Shown here one piece after another: positions 4,992-56,870 of a stretch of 64,000 nt of DNA. Source of the stretch: Hysterangium stoloniferum (Eukaryota; Basidiomycota; Agaricomycetes; Hysterangiales; Hysterangiaceae); assembly GCA_015178975.1 (NCBI GenBank), contig WHVD01000059.1, positions 434,001-498,000 of the forward strand. Direction: 5' to 3'. A program made the position numbers and the translations under genes. A model generated the notes under the pieces. That model had not been told where the DNA came from. It made no database searches and worked only from the letters and a program-made list of their open reading frames with translations. Position 1 is the first letter of the stretch. Every line of letters starts with the position of its first letter.

Positions 4992-5574
4992 TGTTACGAC
5001 CCATTCCCAGATGTTTCAATATCCGACTTCCGGTCTCCCACTCCCGACTTCCGATCCCCGACTTCCGACTTTGACCTCCGACTACGGAACATCATAGTTA
5101 CCGTATCATCCGCGTTCTTCGTTTGTTCCGCATTTGGTAATTTGTCCGTTGACAAGTATTCACTCGTTTGTTGTTGTATTCCCGTCTCGGAATATTGTCT
5201 TCCTAATATGTCTTATTGTATTTCCGTTTTAAGAATACTTCCGTTTCCGTCTTATTATGGTCTCAGTTTGTAGTACAATAACGAGTAGACTTATATTAGT
5301 TTCCGCGAATTTGTACTTTACTTTAGATCTGATATCGACTTAGTTTCTTATTCCTCCTCCCGTCTTTCTGTACGCTCGATATTCGGAACTCTTCGGAACT
5401 CTGAATATCCATATCTTCCGTCGTTAGTTCACTTCCGAAATTAAGGACATTGAGTGTTTGCGTAGAGGCGCAGCACATAAGCTGAAGCCGACGTCCTGAC
5501 CCTATCCACGAGTTTCCGACTTCCCGGTGACTTCCCGATAGTTCTGGAATAAGTTCCCGACACGGCACTTAACA
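4992..5574 (+). repeat. Solo LTR-1 inside E2 integrase, TSD GAGAC
   Basis: Starts TGTTACGACCCATTCCC and ends CACTTAACA. Direct repeats GAGAC at 4987-4991 and 5575-5579 are the target-site duplication, and the integrase frame resumes right after it. It holds CpG-rich sequence inside a CpG-poor host element, so it is a later insertion. Confidence 0.93.
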
Positions 5575-6149: not shown

Positions 6150-7713
6150 CTCCTGGCCCAGCTTCTTTGGAACTCAACACCTCTAAATACTGTTTGAGTT
6201 GTCCTCCAATATACTCTATGATGCTGGTCTGTTTCTCCATCCCCAAGCCCAATAATCGCAATTGTTTGGTGAACAGTGCTTGTTGTCACAGTTGTTTGTG
6301 TCAGAACTGACTTGTTTCCGATAAATATGAGCATAGGAGTTGATTTTGTTCCTCCAATGTGTCTGCCTGCTGCTCTTGATAGGGACCGTTCCCATCAGTA
6401 TCCAGGAAGATGCAACTGAGTTTTTGATTGGCACACTCTTGGCATGTGCAGCCCCAACCATTGGCCCAAGGATGGCAAACCTGACCTCGGTTAGTGCATT
6501 GATTGCACTTTGGGTTGTTTTTGGGCCCCACCTTTGGGGCCTGTTTTTGTTTCTATAACTGAAAAATTAGAAAATAAAAAAAAAACTAAATAATAGAAGT
6601 CCGAACATACCTTAGGGCTCAAAGGCCCTGGGACTTCCTCCTTGTCCTCCCCATCCTCTTTGTCATTGGAATCTGATGGTGTTACTGCCTTGCACTGTAA
6701 AAGGAGGATATCTGAAAACTATTAAGTATACCAAATTCTAATATACTCTAAAGGTCATTTAAACATCTGGGATGTGATTCAAACATAATTTGGTTTTTAA
6801 AACTTTCAAAAAGTTTTAAACTCTCTTGTACATTACAAACTAAAGAATCTTTCCAGACATGAGTAGACAATAAAAAAAATTAGTAGTTTGAAACACTAAT
6901 ACTTTTAAAAAATAGATACCTTTAGATAGTCCATTCCATGCATATGTATATCATTGGCACCTCTAAATACATATGTATTACTTTGGAATGGATCTGTTAA
7001 TCTGAACAGATTTCTACTTGATTCAACATACCCAGAATATATAGGGGGTTTTACTTAATAAAGACAGCTGTGGTATGAAAAATTTCCAATAATATTTTAC
7101 ATATTTTACATGGAAATAAATACATTACAACTTTTAAAAAACAAAGTACTAATAAAAGTATTAGTAGGCATCTGTAAAAGGAAAGAAATTATTTACAATG
7201 GAATTTGTTAAATAACTATGGGTTGTATAAGATGTAATATGAAGAACTATTTCTGATAGTTGTTTTTTGATGATATAATTGTTTCAGAATAGATATCACT
7301 ATTTAAAGATAGAGTTTTGTAAAAAATAAGACTTTTATTAGTAAATATTTGAGATTATAGTAATTATAAACACCCTCCAAAGGATGTCAGCGAGATTATA
7401 AGAATGAAGAATTTCTTACTTTACCCTCCTGCTTCTTTTTCACCTCCTCTTCTCACACCCAATTGGCCTCCCTCTGCTTCTTCCTCACAAGCTCGGCTTC
7501 CTAAAGCTTGCAAGCAGCCTCCTCCTCTGCCAACCTTTTCTCCTCCATCTCTATCACCTTCAGCTCTTCCCTCTCCCTATGTTCCTCCTCCTTGTGTGCC
7601 TTCTTCTTTTCTTCAAGAAGTCATCAATGCTCTTGTGCATTTGGGGGTCCACTCGGATCTGATATGGGGGCAACAGTTGCCACAGATGGGAAAGGTCTTG
7701 ATCCCGAACCCAT
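6150..7713 (-). pseudogene. E2 antisense gene: coiled coil plus Zn2Cys6-like domain (decayed)
   Basis: Gene on the strand opposite to E2 pol. ATG at 7713 (MGSGSRPFPSVATVAP); a TATA box (TATAAAAA, plus 7767-7774) lies about 54 bp upstream. Exon 1 runs to 7420 and encodes a Glu/Lys/Arg-rich helix (EEKKKAHKEEEHREREELK...). It contains stops, then ends GAGGGTAAA before a GTAAGA donor. A later exon starting near 6560 after an acag acceptor (APKVGPKNNPKCNQC...) carries cysteines spaced CX2CX6CX10CX2CX6C, the spacing of fungal Zn2Cys6 domains. The C-terminal part is helical (LFTKQLRLLGLGMEKQ). An AT-rich repeat sits in the middle. Equivalent genes are at 8619-9745 and about 49000-50138. Function is unknown; DNA binding is inferred from spacing only. 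Confidence 0.6.
6702..7382 (-). mobile_element. AT-rich non-autonomous repeat (copy 1 of 3)
   Basis: About 680 bp of AT-rich DNA with short inverted ends (GGAGGATATC on the left, GGAGGGTGTTT read inward from the right). It is repeated in the opposite orientation at about 28770-29290 and 56270-56870. No coding capacity is seen. It interrupts the E2 antisense gene between the coiled-coil exon and the cysteine exon. Probably a MITE-like DNA element; exact ends are uncertain. Confidence 0.6.
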
Positions 7714-7864
7714 GGTCATTGAGGTTGAAGGAAAAGAGTTAAAATCTCAAGCCCAGCACCCCTCAAATTTTTATATGTAAATTTTTACCAGGTCACATGA
7801 TGTCTTGACACACCACCCATATCCGACAAAGTTTTATGTACAAGATCTAGATTTCGGCCTCCTT

Positions 7865-7889
7865 GGGATTTCGGCCAAATGGGGGGATA
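7865..7889 (+). other. E2 polypurine tract
   Basis: GGGATTTCGGCC followed by AAATGGGGGGATA and then the LTR. The same layout (ATTT-GGCC then a G-run) precedes the 3' LTR in E5 (about 50292-50318) and, on the minus strand, in E3 (about 8435-8458). Confidence 0.6.
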
Positions 7890-8434
7890 TGTTAAGTACC
7901 GTGTCAGGAACTTATTCCGGAACTATTGGGAAGTCACCAGGAAGTTGGGAACTGTCAGATAGGATCAGGACATTGGCTTCAGCTTATGTGCTGCACCTCT
8001 ACGCAAACGCTCAAAGTCCTTAATTTCAGAAATAAGGCTTACAATGGAAGATAAGGATATTCAGAGTTCCGAAGAGTTCCGAATATCGAGCGTACAGAAA
8101 GACGGGAGGAGGAATAAGAAACTAAGTCGATATCAGATCTAAGGTAAAGTACAAATTCACGGAAACTAATATAAGTCTACTCGTTATTGTACTACAAACT
8201 AAGACCATAATAAGATGGAAATGGAAGTGTTCTTAAAACGGAAATACAATAAGACATATTAGGGAGACAATATTCCAAAACGGGAATACAACAAACAAAC
8301 GAGTGAATTACTTGTCAATGGACAAATTACCAAATATGGAACAAGGGACGAACGCGGATGATACGGTAACTATGATGTTCCGTAGTTGGAGATTGGAAGT
8401 CGGATATTGAAACATCTGGGAATGGGTCATAACA
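7890..8434 (-). repeat. LTR-1, 3' LTR of E3, shared with E2
   Basis: Read on the minus strand it starts TGTTATGACCC and ends CTTAACA. A minus-strand polypurine tract abuts its right side (E3), and a plus-strand polypurine tract abuts its left side (E2), so one LTR separates two tail-to-tail elements. Confidence 0.85.
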
Positions 8435-8562
8435 GTACCCCCCTGTTAGGCCGAAATCCCATAGAGGCGATTAGGTACTGAGTGATTGAAGCGACGGCTG
8501 ATTATTATGTGTCGTGGAATTTACGCAATTCTGGAGGTGAGAGTTTTGGCTGATGTTCTGAG

Positions 8563-8569
8563 TATAAAA
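8563..8569 (+). promoter_or_regulatory. TATA box of the E3 antisense gene
   Basis: TATAAAA 50 bp before the ATG at 8619, followed by a CT-rich stretch (tttgtttcttcatcc) of the kind found at fungal start sites. It lies inside the element between polypurine tract and ATG, not in the LTR. Confidence 0.6.
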
Positions 8570-8618
8570 ACTTCCAAATATTCGAATTAACGTTTTTGTT
8601 TCTTCATCCACAACTTGT

Positions 8619-9745
8619 ATGTCGATACGTCGGCCACTGTTCATCACTACCCCGGAAGATTCAGATACCGAAATTGCTGTGCTTCAGAAAATGTCAAAGG
8701 TCGCAGAACTTCAACAAAAATGACAAAGGATGGAGGAGTTGAAGCGACGACAGGAGGAAGAGGAAAAGGCATTGATGCAGGAGTTGAAAGATGCAGAAAA
8801 GGCAGAAAAACGGGAGGTGGAGCGGGCGAAGGCGGAGAAGGAAGCGTGGATATGGAAAACGGCGGAGGTTCAGAAAAAGAAGGAGGAGGCGGAAAGGTTA
8901 CAGTGGGAGTCAGAGGTGGCGAAGAAACATGAGGAGATAAGGGAAGGAAAGGTAAGTGTTATCCATAAATTCCATGGTTTCAACCGATAACTATTGGGTA
9001 CAGCGAAAAGCCGTGGAGGTGGAGGTAGAGGGAGAGGCTGGACCTTCGAGTCCTAAAGTAAGTGCATCTACAAAAAGGACCGATAATTGATTAACTTCCG
9101 AAACAGAAGCCAAAGGTCAAGGCTCTGGAACGGATGGACGTGGTCCATGAAAATCCGTGTTATCGATGTTCCATACGGAGTATGACGTGTTGGAAACAGA
9201 AGGTAAAATGGGGCGGAACTTGCTATCCCTGCGCGGTTCTTAAACTTCCATGCACTCTCGCCTTGAAAAGGGATCCAAAAGGTGAGAAGCCTCAGAGAAC
9301 TAACAATGCGGAAAGTTCGGGAGCTGCCAAAGCTGCAGAAACTGAGGTACCGAAAATGGACAGTATGGGCATGGAGCTCCTCAAGGACACCATTGACGCA
9401 TTAGTCTTTATCGGGATGGAAGTCATGAAGATGCGGGATACTCTAGATCGCCATAATGAGATCCAGGAAAAAGGTTTCCGTTCGTTGGTCCAAAATTTCC
9501 AGAGACAAAACGAATTCCTGGAGAAGGTAATGGTTAGCATTGGTGTGATGTTTCCGAGAGATTTTCCGATAAGGCAAGGGAACAGCCTAACAATCTGTTG
9601 GTGGAATATGTCGAAAAGAGATGGGAGTCAGGGAAAGGGCCGGAAAGTGAAGATGAAGAGGTACAGGATATGGTGGATAGTGCGGAAATTGCAGATGATA
9701 TGGGAGTGGAAATGGAAGGAGGATTTGGGGTGTCAGAGACTTTAA
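8619..9745 (+). CDS. E3 antisense gene: spliced coiled-coil/Zn2Cys6-like protein
   Basis: Best copy of a gene on the strand opposite to E3 pol. Exon 1 is 8619-8951 (MSIRRPLFITTPEDSDTE..., then a Glu/Lys/Arg-rich coiled coil). Exon 2 is 9004-9057, exon 3 starts at 9107. Both introns (52 and 49 nt) have GTAAGT donors and CAG acceptors and keep phase 0. Exon 3 gives cysteines C-Y-R-C, C-W, C-Y-P-C, C spaced CX2CX6CX10CX2CX6C, then a helical region (ELLKDTIDALVFIGMEVMKM). Defects: a TGA near 8720 that looks like CGA-to-TGA, and a likely one-base loss near 9563 that diverts an acidic C-terminus ending at 9745. Not recognised as a named family; a fungal regulator-like DNA-binding role is inferred only from cysteine spacing. 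Confidence 0.7.
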
Positions 9746-9846
9746 AATAGATGAAAATAAATTTGACTTGTATGATTTCAAAAACGAGCATGATATCGGA
9801 AATAGCGGAAGTGTCGGAAACTGAAACAGAAAGACAAACGGAAGAG

Positions 9847-12994: not shown

Positions 12995-13132
12995 CCTGTC
13001 ATGGTCTAATGACCTGTCATGTTTTGGACTCCGCCTCCATTCCATTCCATTCCTAACACCTAATTTGGTGTTTACTTATCTTGTTTCATGATTACTTGTT
13101 TGGATCTCATTATTACTGGATTTGGTATAACA
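12995..13132 (+). repeat. LTR-2 fragment
   Basis: Matches the inner part of LTR-2 (ggactccg..., ccattcc..., aacacctaatttggtgtttact..., ggatttggtat). It is broken at 13132 by the Tc1 element. Confidence 0.65.
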
Positions 13133-13134
13133 TA

Positions 13135-14729
13135 CAGTGACCCAAAAAAGCATCCAGATGTTTGGTGAAATTGGAAAGATGGGTTTGCAGCTCCAGAAAT
13201 AAAATAGATAAAATTCTGAATAAATCAGAGGTAAGAGGTATACATCTGACCTACATGATGACATAAGCATGACATCATAGCTTTCCTTATCAGGGAAGTA
13301 GGAAATGAACAATGGACATCGTGCATCCAGACATTTTTTTTGCTCTGTCAACTGATACATGAAACTCAACTAAGGTTCATATAACTGTGGGAATTTCTGG
13401 TTAGGTTCAACAATGTCATGTGACCACATGTTTAAATAACACATTTACATGAACCTTTGCCTCAATTCACCCCCCCACCACATGATGAAGAAGCACTCTA
13501 CTGAAAAAAGGCTCTCTGTCATTTCTCTTCTCCAGGAGGGTCACTCCTGCAGAACAATTGCTTCTAAACTTCATATTGGGCACTCTACAGTATCAGAAAT
13601 TCGCTCCCAACTCCCTGGTCCACTTCCAACACCTTCCAGAGGTTGTCATCCCAAACTCTCCCCCAGGGATCATCACCACCTGGCTCGTTCTATCACCTCT
13701 GGACAGGTTGATAATGCCTCCCAAGCCAAGTCCCACCTCTCCCTCAATGTCTGCACACAGACAATTAGAAATGCATTGAAGAAAGAGAATTTGAAGGCTG
13801 TGGTGAAGGCCAAAAGACCTCTTCTTGCCTGTCGACACATCAAGGCTCGATATGAGTTTGCTATCAAGTACCAGCATTGGACTGAGGAGGACTGGTTTAG
13901 GGTTATCTTCTCAGATGAGACCAAAATCAATCATTTGGGCTCTGATGGGAGGTTGTGGGTATGGAAAAGACCAGGTTCTGCACTCATTCAGCAGCATATC
14001 AATGGAACTATCAAATTTGGAGGGGGGAGTCTAATGATTTGGGGATGTATGACAGCACATGGTGTGGGGTACATGTGCAAGATAGATGGGAGGATGGATG
14101 GGGAAATGTACAAGGACATATTGGAGGACTATATCTTCAAAACAGTGGAGTATTATGGGATGGACAGGGAAAGGTTTGTCTTCCAGCAGGACAATGACCC
14201 TAAACACACTTGCAAGTTGGCCAAGGATTGGTTCAAGGACCATCAGGTGGAGGTTTTAGACTGGCCTGCACAGTCTCCAGACCTGAATCCAATAGAACAC
14301 TTATGGTGGGAGTTGAAGAGAAGGCTTGGAACATACCCTGAGGCACCCAAGAGCATATTGGAGCTCTGGGAGAGAGTGGAGGTGGAATGGGAGGGTATTC
14401 CAAGGGAGAAATGCCTTGAATTGATCAAGAGCATGGCAAGAAGGGTTGCTGCAGTACTAAAGGCCAAGGGGGGGTACACTAAATACTGAAACTGGTAAAA
14501 ACTAGTAATTAATTACAAGAGCAAAAAAGGTGTCTGGATGCACCATGTCCATTATTAATTTCCTACTTTCCTGATAAGGAAAGCTATAATGTCATGCTTA
14601 TGTCATCATGTAGGTCAGATGTATACCTCTTACCTCTGATTTATTCAGAATTTTATCTATTTTATTTCTGGAGCTGTAAACCCATCTTTCCAATTTCACC
14701 AAACATCCGGATGCTTTTTTGGGTCACTG
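13135..14729 (+). mobile_element. Tc1/mariner element, apparently full length
   Basis: Flanked by TA at 13133-13134 and 14730-14731. Long terminal inverted repeats of about 190 bp (13135-13325 and 14540-14729) start CAGTGACCCAAAAAAGCATCC. The arms are nearly identical by eye. One uninterrupted transposase lies between them, so this is the best candidate for a recently active element in the window. Confidence 0.92.
13449..14489 (+). CDS. Tc1 transposase (DD34E), open reading frame intact
   Basis: Cut-and-paste DNA transposase of 346 codons. The N-terminal helix-turn-helix is visible (EKRLSVISLLQEGHSCRTIASKLHIGHSTVSEI). The DDE core has D in VIFSDETK, D in FQQDNDPKHT and E in LNPIEHLW, with 34 residues between the last two (Tc1 type). 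GGGSLMIWGCM is also typical. Length matches the roughly 340 residues usual for Tc1. The start could be the ATG at 13449 or one of two ATGs about 11 codons further in (MMKKHSTEK), which fits family length better. No stop or frame shift. Confidence 0.93.
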   Translation: MNLCLNSPPHHMMKKHSTEKRLSVISLLQEGHSCRTIASKLHIGHSTVSEIRSQLPGPLPTPSRGCHPKLSPRDHHHLARSITSGQVDNASQAKSHLSLNVCTQTIRNALKKENLKAVVKAKRPLLACRHIKARYEFAIKYQHWTEEDWFRVIFSDETKINHLGSDGRLWVWKRPGSALIQQHINGTIKFGGGSLMIWGCMTAHGVGYMCKIDGRMDGEMYKDILEDYIFKTVEYYGMDRERFVFQQDNDPKHTCKLAKDWFKDHQVEVLDWPAQSPDLNPIEHLWWELKRRLGTYPEAPKSILELWERVEVEWEGIPREKCLELIKSMARRVAAVLKAKGGYTKY

Positions 14730-14731
14730 TA

Positions 14732-14926
14732 TTTTTTTATTTATTAGAAATTTGGGGGGGATACTAAAAATGGCTTGTATCCACCCTACAGTGCATAGCC
14801 ACACTTTTGGCACTTATGTAAGCCCACCCAGCACTGTGTAGGTCCGCACAGCATGCTGGCGCTTGTGTAGGTGCCGACTGCAGTTGCAGTGCTGGCACAC
14901 AAGGAGGCCTGGCTCCATGGACACAC
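14732..14926. other. Unassigned sequence between Tc1 and LTR-3
   Basis: About 195 bp with a G-run and a repeated cac/agc-rich section; no coding or repeat family recognised. Confidence 0.3.
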
Positions 14927-15686: not shown

Positions 15687-15692
15687 GTATCC

Positions 15693-16237
15693 TGTTACGA
15701 CCCGTTCCCGGATGTTTCAATATCCGACTTCCGATCTCTGACTACGGAACATCATAGTTACCGTATCATCCGCATTCGTCCCTTGTTCCGTATTTGGTAA
15801 TTTGTCCATTGACAAGTAATTCACTCGTTTGTTTGTTGTATTCCCATTTCAGAATATTGTCTCCCTAATATGTCTTATTGTATTTCCGTTTTAAGAACAC
15901 TTCCATTTCCATCTTATTATGGTCTTAGTTTGTAGTACAATAACGAGTAGACTTATATTAGTTTCTGTGAATTTGTACTTTACCTTAGATCTGATATCGA
16001 CTTAGTTTCTTATTCCTCCTCCCATCTTTCTGTACACTTGATATTCGGAACTCTTTGGAACTCTGAATATCCTTATCTTCCATTGTAAGCCTTATTTCCA
16101 AAATTAAGGACTTTGAGTGTTTGCATAGAGGTGCAGCACATAAGCTGAAGCCAAAGTCCTGATCCTATCCGACAGTTCCCGACTTCCCGGTGACTTCCCG
16201 ATAGTTCCGGAATAGGTTCCTGACATGGTACTTAACA
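15693..16237 (+). repeat. 5' LTR of E4 (LTR-1)
   Basis: Starts TGTTACGACCCGTTCCC and ends TACTTAACA just before the primer site and gag. The site AGATCTGATAT at 15987-15997, about 30 bp after a TATA-like CTTATATTAG, is the exact complement of the primer site at 16240-16250. The stem-loop motif lies at about 16130-16155. Confidence 0.9.
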
Positions 16238-16239
16238 GT

Positions 16240-16250
16240 ATATCAGATCT
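16240..16250 (+). other. E4 self-complementary primer-binding site
   Basis: ATATCAGATCT starts two bases (GT) after the LTR and is the exact 11-nt reverse complement of 15987-15997 in the LTR. Confidence 0.65.
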
Positions 16251-28600: not shown

Positions 28601-28769
28601 TTTCAATAAAGTGTTAATCTGGAGTTCATGAATAGTAAATTAGGAAAGTACATATATCTGCAGATAACAAGTGACATAGAGGGTGATGAATGGATCACAA
28701 ACTTGAAATCCAAACATATGTACTGTTAAGAACTGAAGTCTACACTTAATATGGAGGTTGTCCATAATC

Positions 28770-29290
28770 ATTATAATATCATATGTTTACTTGTAAAATT
28801 TATATTTCTACAAAACTCCATCTTTAAATAGTGATATATCCTCTGAGACTATTATATTGTTAACCACCAACCATATGTAAGAAACAATTCTCCATATTAC
28901 ATCCTAAATAATTCAGAGTCAATTAATAGAACGCATTGTATATAATTTCCTTCCTTTTACAGATGCCTACTAATACTTTTATTAGTACTTTGTTTTTTAA
29001 AAGTTGTAATGTAGTTATTTCCATGTAAAATATTATTGGAAATATTTCATACCACAGCTGTCTTTATTAAGTCAAACCCCCTATATATTCTGGATATGTT
29101 GAATCAAGTAGAAATCTGTTCAGATTGACAGATCCATTCTGAAGTAATACATATGTATTTACAGGTGCCAATGATATACATACATACATATGCATGGAAT
29201 GGACTATCTAAAGGTATCTATTTTTTAAAAGTATTAGTGTTTCAAACTACTAATTTCTCTTATTGTCTACTCATGTCCAGAAAGATCATT
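28770..29290 (+). mobile_element. AT-rich non-autonomous repeat (copy 2 of 3)
   Basis: Opposite orientation to 6702-7382 and clearly the same sequence (for example ttgaatcaagtagaaatctg and catggaatggactatc). One end starts near ggaggttgtcc at about 28760. Confidence 0.65.
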
Positions 29291-29665: not shown

Positions 29666-30752
29666 TGTTAAGTGCCATGTCAGAACTTATTCTGGAACTA
29701 TTGGAAAGTCACCAGAAACCTGGCAACTATCGGATAGGGTCAGGATGTCAGCTTCAGCTTATGTGCTGCACCTCTATGCAAATGCTTGGGAGTCCTTAAT
29801 TTCAGAGACAAAAACTTACACTGGAAGATATGGATATTCAGAGTTCTGAAGAGTTCTGAATATCAAGCGTACAGAAAGATGGAAGAGGGAATAAGAAACT
29901 AAGTTGATATCAGATCTAAAGTAAAGTACAATTTGTGGAAACTAATATAGATCATCTCGTTATTGTACTACAAATTAGGATCATAATAAGATGAAATCAG
30001 AAGTATTCTGAAATGGCAATACAGTAAGTAAACGAGTGAATACTTGTCAGTCGACAAATTACTAAATGCAGAACAAAGGTGAGATCCAGAAGTACAGGAA
30101 CTATGAATGTTCTGTAGTCAGAAGTTGGAGTTGGATATTGAGGCAGAGGTCAGATGATTTGGATGCTATTGGATATTTGTTAAGTGCCGTGTCGGGAACT
30201 TATTCCGGAACTATCAGAAAGTCACCGGGAAGTCGGGAACTATTGGATAGGGTCAGGACGTTGGCTTCAGCTTATGTGCTGTGCCTCTACGCAAACGCTC
30301 AAAGTCCTTAATTTCAGAAGTGAGACTTATGATGGAAGATATGGATATTCAGAGTTCTGAAGAGTTCTGAATATTGAGCGTACAGAAAGATGGGAGAAGG
30401 AATAAGAAACTAAGTCGATATCAGATCTAAGGTAAAGTACAAATTCACGGAAACTAATATAAGTCTACTCGTTATTGTACTACAAACTAAGACCATAATA
30501 AGACGGAAACGGAAGTGTTCTTAAAATGGAAATACAATAAGACATATTAGGGAGACAATATTCCGAAATGGGAATATAACAAACAAACGAGTGAATACTT
30601 GTCAACGGACAAATTACCAAATGCAGAACAAGGGAAGAATGCAGATGATACGGTAACTATGATGTTCCGTAGTCAAAGATCGGAAGTCAAATATTGAAAC
30701 ATCCGGGAACAGGTCATAACAATATTGAAGTATCCAGGAACAGGTTGTAACA
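29666..30752 (-). repeat. Outer solo LTR-1 split by a second LTR-1, TSD AGAGA
   Basis: Begins TGTTAAGTGCCATG, is interrupted at 30177, and resumes 30722-30752 to end GGTTGTAACA. AGAGA at 29661-29665 and 30753-30757 is a perfect duplication. Confidence 0.92.
30178..30721 (-). repeat. Inner solo LTR-1 nested in LTR-1, TSD ATATT
   Basis: 544 bp, TGTTAAGTGCCGTG..GGTCATAACA, with ATATT at 30173-30177 and 30722-30726. It keeps more CpG than the outer copy and is therefore younger. Confidence 0.93.
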
Positions 30753-34408: not shown

Positions 34409-36201
34409 CTATCGCTCCCTCTCCCTCTCCCTTTCCCTAGCATCCCTTTCCCTTTCCCTATCCCTCTCTATGTCCCTATCTCTTTCCCTCTCACGGTCAC
34501 GGTCACGTTCTCTCTCCCTAGACTTCTCTCTCGAAATCTCCATCTCTCTTTCCCTGTCTCGTTCTTCACTGGGTGGTGAAGGGCGGTAGGGGTAGGATGA
34601 GCCAGGGTATGCAGACCCCTGATGGGGAGAATACGACCCTTGAGATGGTAAGATAGGACTCAAATGCAATGATTTCGAAGCGTTTGTACTGGGGCTGCTG
34701 GGGTTAGACGAATGTACCTGAGCAGGACCCGGGGCTGGTGAATGGTTGAGGAGTGCGTTTAGGGAGTGGGGAGATGTCGTTCCTGGTCCTGGGGCTGGTG
34801 CTGGTGCGGACGCAGATTGTGGGGCAGATGGTGATGTTGGGGGTGCGGGAGCAGAAACGGGGACGGACGAGGATGAGGGTGGTTGGAGGGCCATAAGTGA
34901 CGCATGAGTGTTCAGAGGTCTAGGAGGGACGTTTACCACTCCGGTGCCCGCTCCTTCCACGCCAGGTCCGGCAAGTTTACCGCCTGCAGTTCCTTGGCCA
35001 TCCCTTCCGCCCCCCCACCGCTTTGCCCACCCCCTCCGCCTTGCCCACCAACCTTCCTCGGCTTACTCCGTAACTCTGCAGGATCATGTGGTCGGTCTTT
35101 CTGATGCGTCCTCTCGTAAAGCCCACACTTATTACAAAGCACCTTCCCTGGGTGCATCGATGATCTCCTCCACGCTGCACTATCAGGTGTGTGGCAGTTG
35201 AAGCAACGGCGGCGGATATAGGAGCCTAGCTTTGTGGTAGCATCGTCTGTGTACAAAATCGGCTTAGATTGCTGAGGGTTTTGAAGCTGTTGTTGGGAGT
35301 GCGTAGGCGAGTGTCCCTGGGAAGAGTGCGAGAGGTGCGGAGAGTGCAAATGTGGAGAGGATGGGTGCGGCGAATGCCTCAGGGGAGAGTGAGTTAGGGG
35401 CGAATGATGCGAATGTGAGTGCGAGTGTGTGTGGAGGAGTGAGGAGACTGTTAGTTTGGAGGTGGAAGACGCGAGCGCACTGGCAGGACTGTTATGCCCA
35501 TGTCCACCGTCGTGCGGGTGGACAGGTAGATCCAACGGTGGAAGCTTCGTATGTCCACCACGGGCGTATTCCCTGTCCCTATCCCTTTCCCTCTCGTACG
35601 CCGAGCTCGGATGCGCACTCGCGGGATGATAAGGGCCTAACACGCCGCCCGAGCCAGAATGGCCATGGCTATGTTCTCTGTGATGCGGTGGGGCGCTATT
35701 CGGACTTTTGCTTGATGGATATGGCATCGTTGGGGGGATGGGGAGTGAGAGGTGGACAGGCGAACCACGGGCGTTGGGATTGGGGTTGGTTGAGAGCGGA
35801 GGGAGGGTGTATCTGTAGGAGAGGAAATGTGTGCGTTAGTCCTGCATAGCAATTGGAGAAAATCCTGAGATACGTACCCGTGTTGGGATTGGGTGCTCTC
35901 GCGGTATGGTTGGTGCTGAGGTGCATGTGGGGTCTGCGTGTTGTTAGAGACATGAAGGATGACATAGGGATGCTGGATGCTCTCTCACCTGACGATACCA
36001 TTGCTCGCTATGCTGCTGCTGTTGCTGCTGGGCAATATGCTGCTGCTGGTGATGATAATCGGATCTCCTATCCACATCCATCTCGTTCGCTTCTCCTCCA
36101 TCCTCAGAATACGAATCCTCGCTCGCTGCCGCTGAATGATGGCGGGGGGGCTCTCGGATGACGGTCCACCCATTTACGTTCTGCTCTGTGGCTGGATACA
36201 T
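34409..36201 (-). CDS. GATA-type zinc-finger transcription regulator
   Basis: Host gene on the minus strand. Exon 1 36201-35989 (MYPATEQNVNGW..., Gln-rich), exon 2 35933-35878, exon 3 from 35812; donors GTGAGA and GTACGT, acceptors CGCAG and TACAG, phases kept. Exon 3 has long His/Ser/Pro-rich tracts, then one GATA finger (about 35100-35215): C-F-N-C, 19 residues with AWRRS, C-N-K-C-GLYERTH. After the finger the frame ends near 34933, while an overlapping frame runs on to 34409 through Pro/Ser-rich and then Arg/Glu/Asp-rich repeats. The join is either a 65-nt intron (GTGGGC..CTGCAG) or an indel in the G7 run near 35015. It binds GATA-like DNA by family. I cannot assign a pathway. Confidence 0.85.
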
Positions 36202-38762: not shown

Positions 38763-41490
38763 TCTCCTGTGTGATGAGGGGAGACCTGTCTGGTTGATCA
38801 GATAACCTTGTGTCGATCAAAGACCGTGAGACTATTATTAGTGTGGTAATTGCTTCCGATGGTTACTCGTAAAACACTATCACGTAAAGCAGGTACATAG
38901 GACAAACACTCTAGCCCTGAGTTTCTTTGATGCGTGGGTTTACACCTACACAATCCCACCAGAAATATCGATGGGTCATAAAAATAAAGTAAAGTTTATT
39001 GCCTCCGAGAGGAAATATCAAGAGATTCATCACATAACTAGAATTAAAATCGCACTAAGCTGTCGTTTGATTATCTTTCTTTCTCTAAGGTCAAAAGTCG
39101 ACTATACTATCGGAGTCAAGTCCGGTTATCGAGGACACGGTTGTGCCAGTGTCTTTCTCTAAGTTCACTAGCTAGGGGGAAACCTGTATTGATGTGTCAC
39201 ACATTAGACATCGAATGAGAATAACAAAGCCGGCAAATGTAATAAAATTACAGTGTGGAGAAACGGCAACGCGACAATCACGCCTCTACATAGCATCAGT
39301 GCCTGTTGAAGCACTGGGGAACGCGTGGATATCTTTAAGCGGGAGCGGCAAAAAGTCAACTCTCATGACGATGTGTTATGAACCTTGCCTACGGCCGAGT
39401 ACGAAAGTGATCCTAAGGTACCAGTAGCAGCAATCTCCCAAAAGAGTCGTATACATTCTGACTATAATAGCATTGTTCATTAGAGTGGATTGTGCTCGTA
39501 TGATGGTTGAAGAATGTCATTTATTTTATTGATATTTCTTAACCACATTTAACCTACACCAGGAATATCTTATTTATCACCCAGGATTCCAGAGCGTTCT
39601 TCAAGTAATATGTATTAGGAAAATGAATGATGTTCTCGTACGATTTTTAAAAACGTCATATACTTCGCTATTATTCCTTAGCCGCCATACAATCTGCTTT
39701 GGGAAGGACATGTGAGTAGTAGCTTTTAGCTCCGTAGAGGAGGCATTTGTAGCACGGTGATACCGCCCGTTCAGCTAATGTGATTGACAGATATATATTA
39801 ATAATTCAATGTCTCTGAAGCTTGACTCCTGAAGGCTTTCTAGATGGAGGTTCGGAAGAAACACCTCCTGTGGCCACCGATAGCCGAGGTTTTATCACAT
39901 CCTAGGCGAGTGCTTAAAACATATCAAATGAGGGTAAAGTCACCCAATATGGCAGTTGGATGATCTGGATGATTATCACTTACTCCGGGCCTGGGAAAGT
40001 TATGAATAGGATGTTTAATATTATGGACCTATTTGTGGTTATGTGAGCATTCTTCGGCGTTATTTGGATTTGGGTCTGCTGCCCCCCCCCCTGGAGAATG
40101 CCGGTTTGGGAGACTAGGCTAAATTTGGTCGGCTTGCGAGACTAGTATATAAAAAACTAATATAAGACCACCGACGGCTCATTCGACGGCAACCCTACCC
40201 GAATCAGAGCCAGCCGTCGTCCTTGGTCCCTCAAGGTTCGCTGCCGGCATATAGGGATATGATGTGACACGCCAATGCTATTTGAAATTGTTGATGAAGT
40301 AGAGTAATGGAATATAATATTTTTCCAGGGAGGCCAGCGAAAGCATTCATTGCATGATTATTACAAACAGATATGTGCTGGACCTGAGCCAAAGGTACCT
40401 CAGGGATACCACATCAAAGACTTATATGAATGAGGGATGTGATTATTTGATAAATTCTGCAGGTCTGCCTAGTTGTGATTCTCATGCTGAGAATTTGTTG
40501 TGCAGATAAACCCGGCCCACATCCTCCTCTTCAATTTGAGAAAACACAAGACCAAAATACTAGACGACTACCGCTTCACCGTGTCGCTGATGAACAATCT
40601 TGTTTGCCAGCTTAGGCTTTTTATTCGACTGTACCTATCACAGTTTTCTGTTCTCTGAGCAGTGGCAATGATATAACATTGACGATCGAACATATGTCAA
40701 GATATGCGCGAATGAACTCGGACGAGGGAGGAATGATGGGCATAAGCAAATGGCGAATAGGCGTGATCATCCCCGTAATCCCGACGAATGTGACTAGTCT
40801 AGTAGTGAGCAAATATCATCGATCGGCACGAGAACCGAATTGAACAGGCATAATCGGTAGTCTTAGATCCACGCCAGGGAAATTCATACTCGTGTGCGAG
40901 CTTGTAATAAAGATCGGGTGATGTGAGGATTAAGAACTTGAATATTTAGTCTGAATCTTAGTCGTGGACGGTTATTCCACTATTGTTTTTAAATAAGATC
41001 TCGTTCATACTTGGCGGGACCATAGTGGTCGCTTGTGAGGGGAGTACAAATGGCTATCATCCTATAATGTTATCAATTTTCGCACCGGTTTATGGATCGC
41101 ATAATATGGGAGATGATAGGCATAATCAAGTACTAGCGTGAAAGCCTTTGTGGCAATAATTTACACTGGAGTTATGTGTAGACATGTTTTCAGCCCGAGT
41201 GACGGCTTTCAGAGCAGCACGATCTGACCCTTCATGCCTAGTTGAGATTATCTTAGTTTCTCGTAATTGCGGTTAGGCACAGAGTCCAGATTGAATCACT
41301 CATTGGTTAAGCGCTTGGAAATCAACATGTGACTGAATACTATCGTGATGCTACTCTCAACAACACGAGCCCTTAGTTACATAAGCATACCCGTTTTTCC
41401 CACTGTATGTACAGTGAACCGGGGGCTTGGGGGGTCAAGCCCCACATAACCCACAACTTTTCTCTACGTTGACAATTCTAAGTATTTATC
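38763..41490. other. CpG-rich sequence with no recognised gene
   Basis: Many stops on both strands. Notable only for a C-run at 40081-40091 and a G-rich hairpin near 41418-41442 (GGGGCTTG..CAAGCCCC). Confidence 0.35.
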
Positions 41491-42206: not shown

Positions 42207-42744
42207 AATTATTTATATATACTTTTTGAATTCATTGAATCTGAAAGGCATACATTAGTCAGTCACTCTTTGCAACTGGGCCTGAATACTTACTTATGTG
42301 CAATAATAATGTGCTCAAACACTACATGAGCAGTCATATGTTAGAATATAGGGCTGTGCGAGCATGCATAAGGTGCCACACCAGCAATTTGCCACCCTAT
42401 TGTTCTTTGAGTTTGGCTAAACCCTTTGTTGCCATATGTCTATTGTTCTCAAGGTGTATATAACTAGTATAGATTTCTTGTACTTATACTATCCGTTTGC
42501 CTCCTATGAGACACAGAGGGTCAAATGGAAATTATATTCATTATTGCTTGAGATTCACAAGCTTTAAGATCTTATTTCAACATCATACATATCTGTCTTG
42601 GAATAAGATTTTCACTCTTCTCTGATTTGTTCCTCTTGAAGCATCAACATAAAACTATACATGTGAGAAGACAGGAGTGTGCAGATGCCAATCCCACTAT
42701 CTCAAAGATTGACCTCTGACTTATGGATATTCATGTTACCCAAG
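42207..42744. other. Unassigned CpG-poor sequence left of E5
   Basis: No coding or repeat family recognised; it ends in CCAAC, the E5 target duplication. Confidence 0.3.
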
Positions 42745-42749
42745 CCAAC

Positions 42750-43767
42750 TGTTAGGACTGGAAAATGGGAACCAGAACACAACCTATAAGTATCTGACTC
42801 TCTATATCACATGATCTCACTGCCAGACTCTGCCTGGATAACCCAGACTCTGCCTGGATAACCCAGACTCTGCCTGGATAACCCAGACTCTGCCTGGATA
42901 ACCCAGACTCTGCCTGGATAACCCAGACTCTGCCTGGATAACCCAGACTCTGCCTGGATAACCCAGACTCTGCCTGGATAACCCAGACTCTGCCTGGATA
43001 ACCCAGACTCTGCCTGGATAACCCAGACTCTGCCTGGATAACCCAGACTCTGCCTGGATAACCCAGACTCTGCCTGGATAACCCAGACTCTGCCTGGATA
43101 ACCCAGACTCTGCCTGGATAACCCAGACTCTGCCTGGATAACCCAGACTCTGCCTGGATAACCCAGACTCTGCCTGGATAACCCAGACTCTGCCTGGATA
43201 ACCCAGACTCTGCCTGGATAACCCAGACTCTGCCTGGATAACCCAGACTCTGCCTGGATAACCCAGACTCTGCCTGGATAACCCAGACTCTGCCTGGATA
43301 ACCCAGACTCTGCCTGGATAACCCAGACTCCATTCTATAGGTGCTGACTTTCAGTATTGTACAAACTATGCACTGGACCCTGCCCAGATATTCCAGACCC
43401 TCTTGTTCTCAATCCATCTTTGCCTGTTTGACATCTGGTTCAGTTTACCACCATGTTTCCCTATCTGTTTGACATCTGGTTTATTGTGTTATTGTACTCT
43501 GGATATGACTTTTTGTATGTCTAAGTTAGTAGTACAATAATCTACTAGTCTATATAGTCCAGTAGTTATCTGTTCTGATCAGAAAATTGACTTAGTTTCT
43601 ACTTGTCTTTTGCTCCCTGCATATTCTCAGAACCTGCAGGTTTCCCATCCACTCCTGTTCAAAATTGGACAATGCAATCTGCAAAGGTGCAGCACATACA
43701 AGTTGTGTCCTTCCTGGAACTTCTGCAGGTTTCCCCAGAGACCCACCTGTGAGCCCCATGCTTAACA
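42750..43767 (+). repeat. 5' LTR of E5 (LTR-5) with 25-unit minisatellite
   Basis: TGTTAGGACTGG..GCTTAACA, 1018 bp against 535 bp for the 3' LTR; the excess is the tandem repeat. TATATAG at about 43550 precedes TCTGATCAGAAAAT (43574-43587), the complement of the primer site. The second half of the stem-loop motif (from GCTG on) is lost near 43690-43705. Confidence 0.93.
42823..43330 (+). repeat. 20-bp minisatellite, about 25 identical units
   Basis: CAGACTCTGCCTGGATAACC repeated without visible variation. The 3' LTR of the same element has one unit (about 50397-50416). Confidence 0.97.
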
Positions 43768-48999: not shown

Positions 49000-50138
49000 A
49001 AGAAAGAGAAAACAATTAATATTACAGCTGTCCAGCCTCCACAAACTCCTTATGCAAGTCTTGGACCTCCTCAGCCCTCACAGATATGTCCATCTCCTGC
49101 AACCCTTGGAATCCCTGGCCTCAGAATCCTCATAATCCATGTAGTCTTTCAGGAACTCCTGGAATAACCCACAGAAGTCCTGAATACAACCTACCAAAGC
49201 CCTCCACACATTGTTCCCATCATGTAATAGACCATTTTGAGCCTCAATGCCCACTACAATCCATCCTAAAGCCTCCTCCATTGCCCCCTGCCTTTCTGCA
49301 TGACCACCCATTTCCTGGGAACCAGAACCTGAGGCATCTTGCACCAATGAGCACCAATGAGCACTTGGCTTTCAAGTGCATGCATGGCCATCAGCCTGGG
49401 CCCCAACTGGCTTTCCAGAAACAATCCACATTCTGGTCATGACAACCAGAGCACCACAGATCATTTTTGGTCTCCAGCCAGGCTGGAGCATTTTTCTGGG
49501 CCTTCTGTCATTTATAAGTCAGTTGTATATCTGTTGACGACTGTACACTTACTGTACCTTCTGAGGACTACCCTATTCCCCTTTGGACTCTGTCTCAACA
49601 TCCACTACCAGTATTATTAGTAAGGACTTGGACCAAAAGAATCTTTGACTCACCTTTCCCACAGACACCATGGATGCCTTGGTGCACTCTGCAGCCACCC
49701 AGGCTGCCTTCTTCTCTGCCTCTGCTTTCTTAGCAGCCACCTCTTCCTCTTCCCTTTTCCTCTGCTCCTCTGCCTCTTTCTGATCTATGGCCAATGCCAC
49801 CTGCACTAAAGGCACCCCAAGGTTTTTGGAGTTGGAGAACCTTCCAAAAAGCCTACTATTTGGCCAAATTTTCTAAGAATTCTTAGAAAATTTGGCCAAA
49901 AATTAGGATTTTTAGAAGGTTTTCAAACTCCAAAAACCTTGGGGTGCCTCCAGTGCTGGTACTCCCTCTCCAATGCCTCCTCCTTCTCCCTGGCCTTCCT
50001 CTCCTATTCTTCCCATTGTTGCCACTGTTTTTCATGTTGTGCAAGTATCTGCACAGCTATGAGTGGAGCCTGGTACATGGACCCCATAGGAGCCCCAGCA
50101 TTGGTGGTAGTTTTCCACAGTGTGGGTTTTGGTCCCAT
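49000..50138 (-). pseudogene. E5 antisense gene: coiled coil plus Zn2Cys6-like domain (decayed)
   Basis: Third copy of the gene opposite to pol. ATG at 50138 (MGPKPTLWKTTTNAGAP); TATATAAT at 50191-50198 about 53 bp upstream, with a CT-rich stretch between. Exon 1 encodes a Glu/Lys-rich coiled coil (KEAEEQRKREEEEVAAKKAEAEKK) and ends GGGAAAG before GTGAGT near 49652. It is split by a 138-bp palindrome. The cysteine region (about 49365-49465) reads C-S-G-C, C-F, stop, C-M, C: CX2CX6CX9 then TGA in place of Cys, X2CX6C. The C-terminal part (49078-49347) is helical. The domain order matches the copies at 6150-7713 and 8619-9745. Confidence 0.6.
49811..49948. mobile_element. 138-bp near-perfect palindrome (mini foldback)
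   Basis: GGCACCCCAAGGTTTTTGG at the left and its complement at the right, with centre aagaattctt. It sits inside the E5 antisense coiled-coil exon. A diverged relative (gagttggaaaaccttcc) is at about 60595-60715. Confidence 0.85.
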
Positions 50139-50190: not shown

Positions 50191-50198
50191 ATTATATA
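50191..50198 (-). promoter_or_regulatory. TATA box of the E5 antisense gene
   Basis: TATATAAT on the minus strand, 53 bp before the ATG at 50138. The spacing equals that in E2 and E3. Confidence 0.5.
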
Positions 50199-50318: not shown

Positions 50319-50853
50319 TGTTAGGACTGGGAACCTGCTGGGAACTAGAATGTGACCTATAAGTATCTGACTCTCTATATCACACAATCTCACCACCAGA
50401 CTCTGCCTGGATAACCTGGACTCCATTCTATACATGCTGACTCTCTGTATTGTATGAACTACACACCAAACCCCACATGGATATTCTGGACCCCCTTGTT
50501 CTCAATCCATCTTTGCCCATTTGTCATCTGGTTCAGTTTACCACCACATTTCCCTATCTGTTTGACATCTGGTTTATTGTGTTATTGTACTCTGGATATA
50601 TCTTTTTGTATGTCTAAGTTAGTAGTAACAATAATCTACTAGTCTATATAGTCCAGTAGTTATCTGTACATACAATCTGATCAGAAAATCAACTTAGTTT
50701 CTACTTGTCTTTTGCTCCCTGCATATTCTTGGAACCAATGGGTTTCCCATCTGCTCCTGTTTGAAATTGGACAATGTGATCTGCGAAGGTGCAGCACATA
50801 AGCTGAAGCTGCAGGTTTCCCCAGAGACCCACCCATGAGCCCTATGCTTAACA
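50319..50853 (+). repeat. 3' LTR of E5 (LTR-5)
   Basis: TGTTAGGACTGG..GCTTAACA, 535 bp. One copy of the 20-bp unit, an intact stem-loop motif (50790-50810) and the primer-complementary site at 50675-50689. Confidence 0.93.
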
Positions 50854-56269: not shown

Positions 56270-56870
56270 TATATATTAGTTGCAAATGCTCTCTATTGTT
56301 AACCACCAACCATGAGAAACAATTCTCCATATTACATCCTACACAATTCAGAGTCAACTAATAGAACCTATTGTATATGGTTTTCCAAGTTATGTAAATA
56401 CTTGCTATTACTTTTGTTGGTACTTTGTTTTTTAAAAGCTAAACTGTAGTTGTTTCCTAGTAAAGTATGTGAGATATCATTGGATATTTTTCATCCTATA
56501 ACTTTCTCATTAAGTGAAACCATCTATATATTCTTGGTATGTTGAATCAAGTAGAAATCTGTTCAGATTGACAGACCCATTCCAATGTAATACTCATCAT
56601 GTATTCAGAGATGTCAATGACATACATGTGCATGAAATGGACCATTTAAAAGGATATGCTTTTTAAAAGTGTTAGTGTTTCAAACTACTAAACTCTTTCA
56701 TAATCTACTCATCTCCTGAGAGATGCTTTGTTTCATAATATACAAATAAGTTTTAAACACTCCCAAAGGTTGGAAGACCAAATTAAGTTTGAATCACATC
56801 CCAGATATTTAAATGACCTTTAGAGTATATTATAATTTGGCATACTTAATAGTTTTCAGATATCCTCCCT
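56270..56870 (+). mobile_element. AT-rich non-autonomous repeat (copy 3 of 3)
   Basis: Same sequence as 28770-29290 and, inverted, 6702-7382; it ends in gttttcagatatcctcc at about 56868. Confidence 0.65.

Follow-up and report, generated by a model that had tools for sequence, protein, structure and literature searches.

A three-exon antisense gene with a candidate zinc-cluster domain in three chromovirus families of Hysterangium stoloniferum

What is an intron-containing gene doing inside a retrotransposon, on the strand opposite to pol? The question arises from a 64,000-nt stretch of H. stoloniferum DNA (contig WHVD01000059.1, positions 434,001 to 498,000; hereafter the window, whose own numbering is used below), in which the minus-strand element E3 has such a gene between its chromodomain and its 3′ long terminal repeat (LTR). 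We find that this three-exon coding gene belongs to the regular equipment of at least three chromovirus families, lying antisense between chromodomain and 3′ LTR. As a best reading, its architecture, an excess of CGG in the LTRs and its divergence alongside the LTR suggest that it may encode an accessory regulator. The E3 locus is laid out as follows.

7887..8435, minus strand: 3′ LTR of E3, a minus-strand element; the TG..CA termini lie at 7890 and 8434
8563..8569, plus strand: TATAAAA, TATA box for the antisense gene, some 130 nt in from the edge of the LTR, with a 49-nt spacer to the ATG at 8619
8619..8951, plus strand: exon 1, a charged helix as judged from sequence
8952..9003, plus strand: intron 1, 52 nt, phase 0, GT-AG
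9004..9057, plus strand: exon 2, RKAVEVEVEGEAGPSSPK, with a similar exon in the other two families
9058..9106, plus strand: intron 2, 49 nt, phase 0, GT-AG
9107..9750, plus strand: exon 3, with cysteine domain, linker, long helix and acidic tail; stop TAG at 9748-9750
9158..9253, plus strand: Zn2Cys6-like domain, CX2CX6CX10CX2CX6C, from sequence, shuffles and fold matches
9756..9761, plus strand: AATAAA, possible poly(A) signal, 5 nt past the stop codon
10165..10929, minus strand: C-terminal part of the E3 integrase (rve, SH3_Tf2-1), convergent with the antisense gene and used in the pairing test below

The initial annotation had described an antisense gene in E3 with a TATA box, an ATG at 8619, two phase-0 introns and regularly spaced cysteines, and this structure was verified base by base. 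The E3 copy itself is not intact, being broken by an in-frame TGA at 8721-8723 (codon 35) and by a frame change near 9550, past which the acidic tail and the stop codon sit in a different frame. Within the window the E3 3′ LTR matches 15692-16241 (94.9%, inverted), 5064-5574 (inverted) and 30171-30721 (direct) by BLAST, and its ends recur in the LTRs bounding the complete elements L031-L033, with 5-bp target duplications.

A coding gene fixed between pol and the 3′ LTR

Searches of the genome (111 Mb, 554 contigs) returned at least 150 scored gene copies with E3 exon 3 as query (627 first-look candidates) and at least 150 scored matches with the E3 integrase (4295 candidates). Integrase lies within 3 kb of 91 of the scored gene copies, and in 90 of these 91 pairs the gene is antisense with integrase on its 3′ side, at a spacing of 582-637 nt in 89 and 1283 nt in one; in the remaining pair the integrase match is on the same strand, 5′ of the gene. 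All four elements fetched whole (L031-L034) enclose the gene in a pair of LTRs 93-95% identical, with TG..CA ends and 5-bp target duplications in L031, L032 and L033 (the duplication of L034 was not resolved), and the interior holds an integrase match in L031 and L032 and gag, by Pfam, in L034. The locus L037 combines an open antisense gene with an open 765-residue pol stretch that exceeds the Pfam cut-offs for RT_RNaseH, Integrase_H2C2, rve, SH3_Tf2-1 and Chromo, while L035 exceeds those for SH3_Tf2-1 and Chromo; the host elements are chromoviruses, that is, Ty3/gypsy elements with a chromodomain. A polyadenylation-type signal (AATAAA, ATTAAA or AATAAT) stands within 60 nt of the stop codon at 48 of 51 loci of the E3 type and 31 of 33 of the L036 type described below.

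Relatives have the gene as well. Eight loci were fetched at integrase matches with no listed gene nearby, and seven (L091-L097) turned out to contain it, frame-broken in the cysteine region in L097; the single exception, L035, retains exon 1 only. Among the 58 integrase matches with no E3-type match nearby, 19 were looked at: nine have an L036-type gene and one an E2-type gene, all ten in the right place as matched by eye, seven are the fetched gene-bearing loci, one (C520) has a matching gene tail and one is the L035 deletion. In L035 (G000:C2:324900-328400) integrase lies in an open 1304-residue frame and antisense exons 2 and 3 are lost. We considered this locus as the fossil of a spliced cDNA, with the exon 1 donor joined to the tail, and rejected the idea: two 9-nt copies of GCGGGAAAA, one of which (the second) is visible in the relative L078, make a deletion between repeats the better explanation, and the junction is exact at one genomic place.

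The initial annotation had noted the same order of parts in the elements E2 and E5 of the window, and these do represent homologous genes of the same structure in two further families, the E2 type and the L036 type (that of E5), whose elements have integrases 80-84% identical to that of E3. Each of the three families has at least 150 scored copies, some of them identical (19 L036-type matches, the query included, at 100% protein identity), which is enough for comparative tests. Common to all is a TATA box, 55-59 nt from its start to the ATG, a charged helix, a donor after Gly-Lys (as annotated, and seen again in the E2 and E5 types), a short exon of the form RKA...SP(Q)K, a second intron, a basic start to exon 3, the cysteine domain and helices. 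TATAAA occurs at this distance at 49 of 51 E3-type and 31 of 33 L036-type loci, and was not found in the E2-type locus L094. The proteins have drifted far apart, with 26% identity between L036 and L037 (E 8.5e-10), 39% over 51 residues between the E2-type L090 and L037 (E 1.4e-6) and 32% over 94 between L090 and L036 (E 7e-10), whereas the pol C-terminus of L036 and L037, the two families for which it was compared, is 88% identical over 149 residues. The LTRs of the families have in common only a 31-nt block and their ends, and the leaders from LTR to ATG align partly. Antisense gene and LTR thus both diverge beside a conserved pol. Exon 3 of L091-L093 differs from that of L037 in the loop between cysteines 1 and 3, the linker and the first helix and is nearly identical in its C-terminal part, which suggests exchange between subfamilies.

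The antisense frame is protein-coding under purifying selection; this and the presence of the gene in relatives, L035 excepted, go in favour of the initial annotation on two of the points that it had named as able to refute it. In a sample that was not random, being made up of best matches and of copies picked mainly for open frames, exon 3 was usable at 33 of 51 E3-type and 23 of 33 L036-type loci and gave median ratios of non-synonymous to synonymous change (pN/pS) of 0.27 and 0.23 at synonymous divergence (dS) above 0.2, from 490 and 172 non-independent pairs; omission of CpG codons left 0.24 and 0.13. For exon 1, split by dS class, the ratio was 0.19-0.35 among E3-type loci and 0.22-0.36 among L036-type loci (0.78 for three pairs). 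Among E2-type copies, comparison of L094 exon 3 with that of three others gave 0.09-0.15 at saturated dS, and closer pairs gave 0.10-0.33. Constraint in E3-type exon 3 is strongest in the second cysteine half (0.06) and the acidic tail (0.09); the first cysteines give 0.45 and the linker gives 0.6-0.7. Shifted and opposite frames gave 1.04-1.60, except for the opposite frame in wobble register (0.32 and 0.29). That frame was rejected as a coding frame of the other strand, for despite its low pN/pS it has stops in every copy (stop-free in 0 of 45 and 0 of 23); a second opposite frame, stop-free in 15 of 23 L036-type copies, is nevertheless unconstrained (1.46).

The predicted protein, its introns and a candidate target

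With a middle spacer of 5-14 residues allowed, the cysteine motif has two occurrences in a six-frame reading of the window, one in E3 and one in E2; 20 shuffled windows have none, and neither do 100,000 shuffled versions of a single exon-3 protein. The six cysteines are invariant in aligned sequences from three families, with a middle spacer of nine or ten residues, and have the CX2CX6C..CX2CX6C spacing of PF00172. Five of seven domain pieces match that family (best E 0.02; 14 bits for the first member), all below its curated cut-off of 21 bits; two of four exon-3 proteins match it (10.1 and 8.9 bits) and two do not, and the E3 exon-3 open reading frame (ORF) has no Pfam match. Sequence searches of the PDB brought up no zinc-cluster protein, and every match had E above 0.5. 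The fold matches listed are all weak and all to zinc-cluster proteins, by title or, for some, because we take them to be such. The annotated Zn2Cys6 domain accordingly keeps its cysteine spacing and gains weak, consistent fold matches while failing the Pfam cut-off, and a domain of this type is weakly supported. As a separate observation, tandem PF00172 matches lie at G000:C56, C115, C308, C209 and C85, some in single frames (such as C56:27459-27674 and 39585-39800), an arrangement unusual for transcription factors.

For the Glu/Lys coiled coil proposed for exon 1, a single charged helix is no worse a reading. The segment has an excess of opposite-charge pairs at i,i+4, but the hydrophobic fraction at the best heptad a/d register is low (0.36 against 0.28 overall in L037, 0.58 against 0.46 in L036 and 0.36 against 0.31 in L090). 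In E3 the joining of exons 2 and 3 creates a basic stretch, SPKKPKVK, a possible nuclear localisation signal. Together with the cysteine domain, the basic stretch, long helices and acidic tail weakly support a plan like that of fungal zinc-cluster transcription factors.

Both introns are a constant of the gene. Intron 1 has GT-AG ends at 50 of 51 E3-type and 33 of 33 L036-type loci, and intron 2 at 50 of 51 E3-type loci; in the L036 type the computed boundary of intron 2 is offset into exon 3, the acceptor being read directly only in L036. The introns vary in length and sequence while keeping GT-AG, and none of the 84 loci is intronless. With five rearranged loci dropped, the TATA-to-ATG segment diverges less than the introns, at 0.054 against 0.174 and 0.208 in the E3 type and 0.062 against 0.132 and 0.116 in the L036 type (some of exon 3 is counted in the last value); at the TATA box itself, over ten bases, divergence is 0.012 and 0.093, respectively. 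Genomic RNA made from the 5′ LTR holds the introns of an antisense gene as complements, which are not splice substrates, so the antisense orientation itself would let them survive reverse transcription, and the many near-identical intron-bearing copies agree with such retention. Retrotransposition assays make use of an antisense intron in a similar manner, and the gene would be nature's equivalent of that device.

CGG half-sites are what zinc-cluster proteins recognise, with specificity fixed by how far apart the half-sites lie and which way they point. We counted CGG against dinucleotide-preserving shuffles and ranked it among 32 trinucleotides. It is the most enriched in the E3-type LTR of L037 (34 against 19.2 expected, z 4.9), where CGG-N4-CGG recurs, and ranks second in the LTR of L034; it ranks first in the L036-type LTR (56 against 40.7 expected), where CGG-N3-CCG recurs. 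The E2-type LTR, which is partial, has no total excess (15 against 14.5), and CGG-N2-CCG recurs in it. Across 18 LTRs of two families z is 3.2-4.9, with CGG first in 16 and second in two. Of 15 tiles from the presumed host DNA at 33-42 kb, 14 gave -1.9 to 1.4 and one gave 3.1. Several points call for caution. The LTRs counted are related copies, and the elements are mildly CGG-rich throughout, ten pol tiles giving z of 0 to 2.6 with CGG among the top three in eight, and two gene bodies 1.6 and 2.6; short repeated arrays are, moreover, common in LTRs. For these reasons the CGG arrays as a putative target of the antisense protein are a lead only.

Decayed relatives and other features of the window

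The E2 and E5 copies of the gene in the window are both degraded.

7420..7719, minus strand: E2 antisense exon 1, with TATAAA beginning at 7775, ATG at 7719 and stops; 59% to L090 exon 1, E 1e-31
6611..6691, minus strand: E2 antisense exon 2, from its second residue; 63% to L090 exon 2, E 3e-9
6172..6552, minus strand: E2 antisense exon 3, with stops, cysteine domain at 6507-6412; 65% to L090 exon 3, E 2e-53
49654..50138, minus strand: E5 antisense exon 1, with an insertion after 49956 and TATATAA near 50198
49132..49504, minus strand: E5 antisense exon 3, decayed, with a stop inside the cysteine region; 57% to L036 exon 3 (first 51 residues), E 1e-20

The annotated E2 gene is present, with its start at 7719 in place of 7713, as judged by its young relative L090, and its first intron is enlarged by a nested repeat (6703-7379) also found at 28752-29286 and 56405-56868 (inverted). 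For E5 the annotated ATG at 50138 is correct; the copy has stops, and exon 1 carries the insertion, its part from 50138 to 49956 matching L036 exon 1 (54%, E 2e-15) and its distal part being recognised by the ...GK/GTGAGT end (E 0.008).

Beyond the E3 integrase an open 346-residue transposase frame of Tc1/mariner type (13449-14489, plus strand; DDE_3, HTH_Tnp_Tc3_2) is flanked by inverted 215-nt repeats (13132-13346 and 14518-14732), apparently as an inserted unit. A 20-nt tandem array at 42703-43450, with 26 register positions of which the middle ones are perfect, adjoins a repeat also found at 50396 and 52362. The GC-rich part of the window has a 264-residue frame with a GATA zinc finger (34933-35727, minus strand), probably a host gene.

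Possible functions and known counterparts

In the model we prefer, the antisense gene would be transcribed from its internal promoter and spliced, and its protein would enter the nucleus and bind repeats that contain CGG, on the U3 side of the LTR of its own element. In the 5′ LTR the CGG array would precede the sense promoter, and at the 3′ end it would have the sense promoter on one side and the antisense promoter on the other; from these positions the protein might set the sense output of its own family, much as the HBZ and APH proteins do for human T-cell leukaemia viruses (HTLV). We regard a nuclear zinc-cluster regulator of the element, made from an internal antisense promoter and acting on LTR CGG repeats, as evenly poised between right and wrong. 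A fuller version, tentative and to our minds somewhat likelier to fail than to hold, is a self-contained circuit in which the element-encoded factor would co-evolve with family-specific arrays (CGG-N4-CGG, CGG-N3-CCG and CGG-N2-CCG) in its own LTR, gene and LTR forming a 3′ unit that could be swapped while pol stays shared, with introns kept only through the antisense orientation. If true, a retroelement would be regulating itself with a host-type transcription-factor fold, and, since zinc-cluster proteins have predictable DNA sites, the function of Ty3 antisense ORFs would become a testable question.

A nuclear protein of this kind could instead be aimed at the host, binding family-specific element DNA and relieving CpG methylation or heterochromatin, an anti-silencing action of the sort exerted by plant VANC proteins. 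Old copies show many CpG-type transitions by eye (CGA to TGA stops, R to W, Q or C), which suggests methylation, and between families the protein diverges far faster than neighbouring pol (26% against 88% identity), as in an arms race. Fungal DNA transposons encoding TET/JBP dioxygenases have been reported (PMC12730594), which we count in favour of the idea, but Pfam found no enzymatic domain in the antisense protein and selection within families is purifying, not diversifying, so that such a factor seems unlikely without being far-fetched. A little less probable still is a structural or integration helper, a nucleic-acid-binding protein in the particle or pre-integration complex that would aid reverse transcription, nuclear entry or targeting; help with such steps has been proposed for plant antisense proteins (PMC7264820) and would suit the basic stretch and long helices, but a particle protein needs no separate antisense promoter, and this one diverges with the LTR instead of staying like pol.

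The transcript might also act as RNA, through double-stranded RNA with the genomic RNA in silencing or copy-number control, with the protein secondary. Gene and pol converge, with about 85 nt between their stop codons in L037, so sense read-through would give about 1.1 kb of complementary RNA; against this, selection acts at the protein level in three families and the exon frames are conserved while the introns vary freely, which leaves a primary RNA role very improbable. That the gene is a chance open frame or a nested unrelated gene, as the broken E3, E2 and E5 copies could suggest, is already refuted by its fixed position in 90 of 91 pairs, by selection and by the homologous three-exon structure in three families, and we give it next to no weight.

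The regulator that we favour has counterparts of several kinds. Antisense ORFs of plant Ty3/gypsy elements (Retand TRP28 ORFs, Grande gene23, RIRE2, PvRetro13) likewise lie between pol and the 3′ LTR in most copies, with DNA binding and regulation proposed; gene23 has a promoter of its own and its product is nuclear, and the Retand ORFs have TRP28 with predicted DNA binding (PMC7264820; PMC11963269). They differ in that Retand belongs to a non-chromovirus lineage (PMC11963269) and that the domains named in the available parts of these sources are TRP28 and SMC, with no mention of Zn2Cys6; the word "intron" is absent from PMC11963269. For fungal chromoviruses, one figure legend points out extra ORFs whose function is unknown (PMC2864245), and the word "antisense" is absent from a survey of fungal LTR elements (PMC3248453) and from a Laccaria study (PMC3411680). 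The initial annotation, which knew of nothing similar in fungal chromoviruses, went too far: the Ty3/gypsy element Boty of Botrytis cinerea has an additional antisense gene, brtn, between pol and 3′ LTR (PMC7264820; PMC8365987), and a CHROMO domain is present in a brtn-bearing Boty-like element (PMC4227169). Its host is an ascomycete, and the likeness is by description of position, not by sequence. Our protein searches found homologues only in P0001 and P0002, both from H. stoloniferum and probably from this same genome, among the matches listed, by a method that needs shared 5-residue words in a fast-diverging protein; one viral-contig scan and a plasmid collection gave no homologue. Nor did the open-licence literature, among the matches listed, yield a description of a fungal retrotransposon with a gene that is antisense and spliced, or with one of Zn2Cys6 type.

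Outside the retrotransposons, the antisense proteins HBZ of HTLV-1 and APH-2, APH-3 and APH-4 of HTLV-2, -3 and -4 come from spliced transcripts, act on their own LTR and are mostly nuclear (PMC10186651). They are viral, with or without bZIP, and expressed from a promoter within the 3′ LTR and not an internal one, and we claim no homology. With Zn2Cys6 factors such as Pho7, Ppr1, Lac9 and Hap1 the antisense protein would share six-cysteine spacing, a weakly predicted fold, an acidic tail and CGG half-site logic; it differs in being element-encoded and below the Pfam cut-off, in a middle spacer of nine or ten residues and, in two of three families, in having one basic residue between cysteines 2 and 3. 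Antisense genes are thus already known in plant Ty3 elements and in fungal Boty, and the intron-containing, Zn2Cys6-like form in chromoviruses is a new variant.
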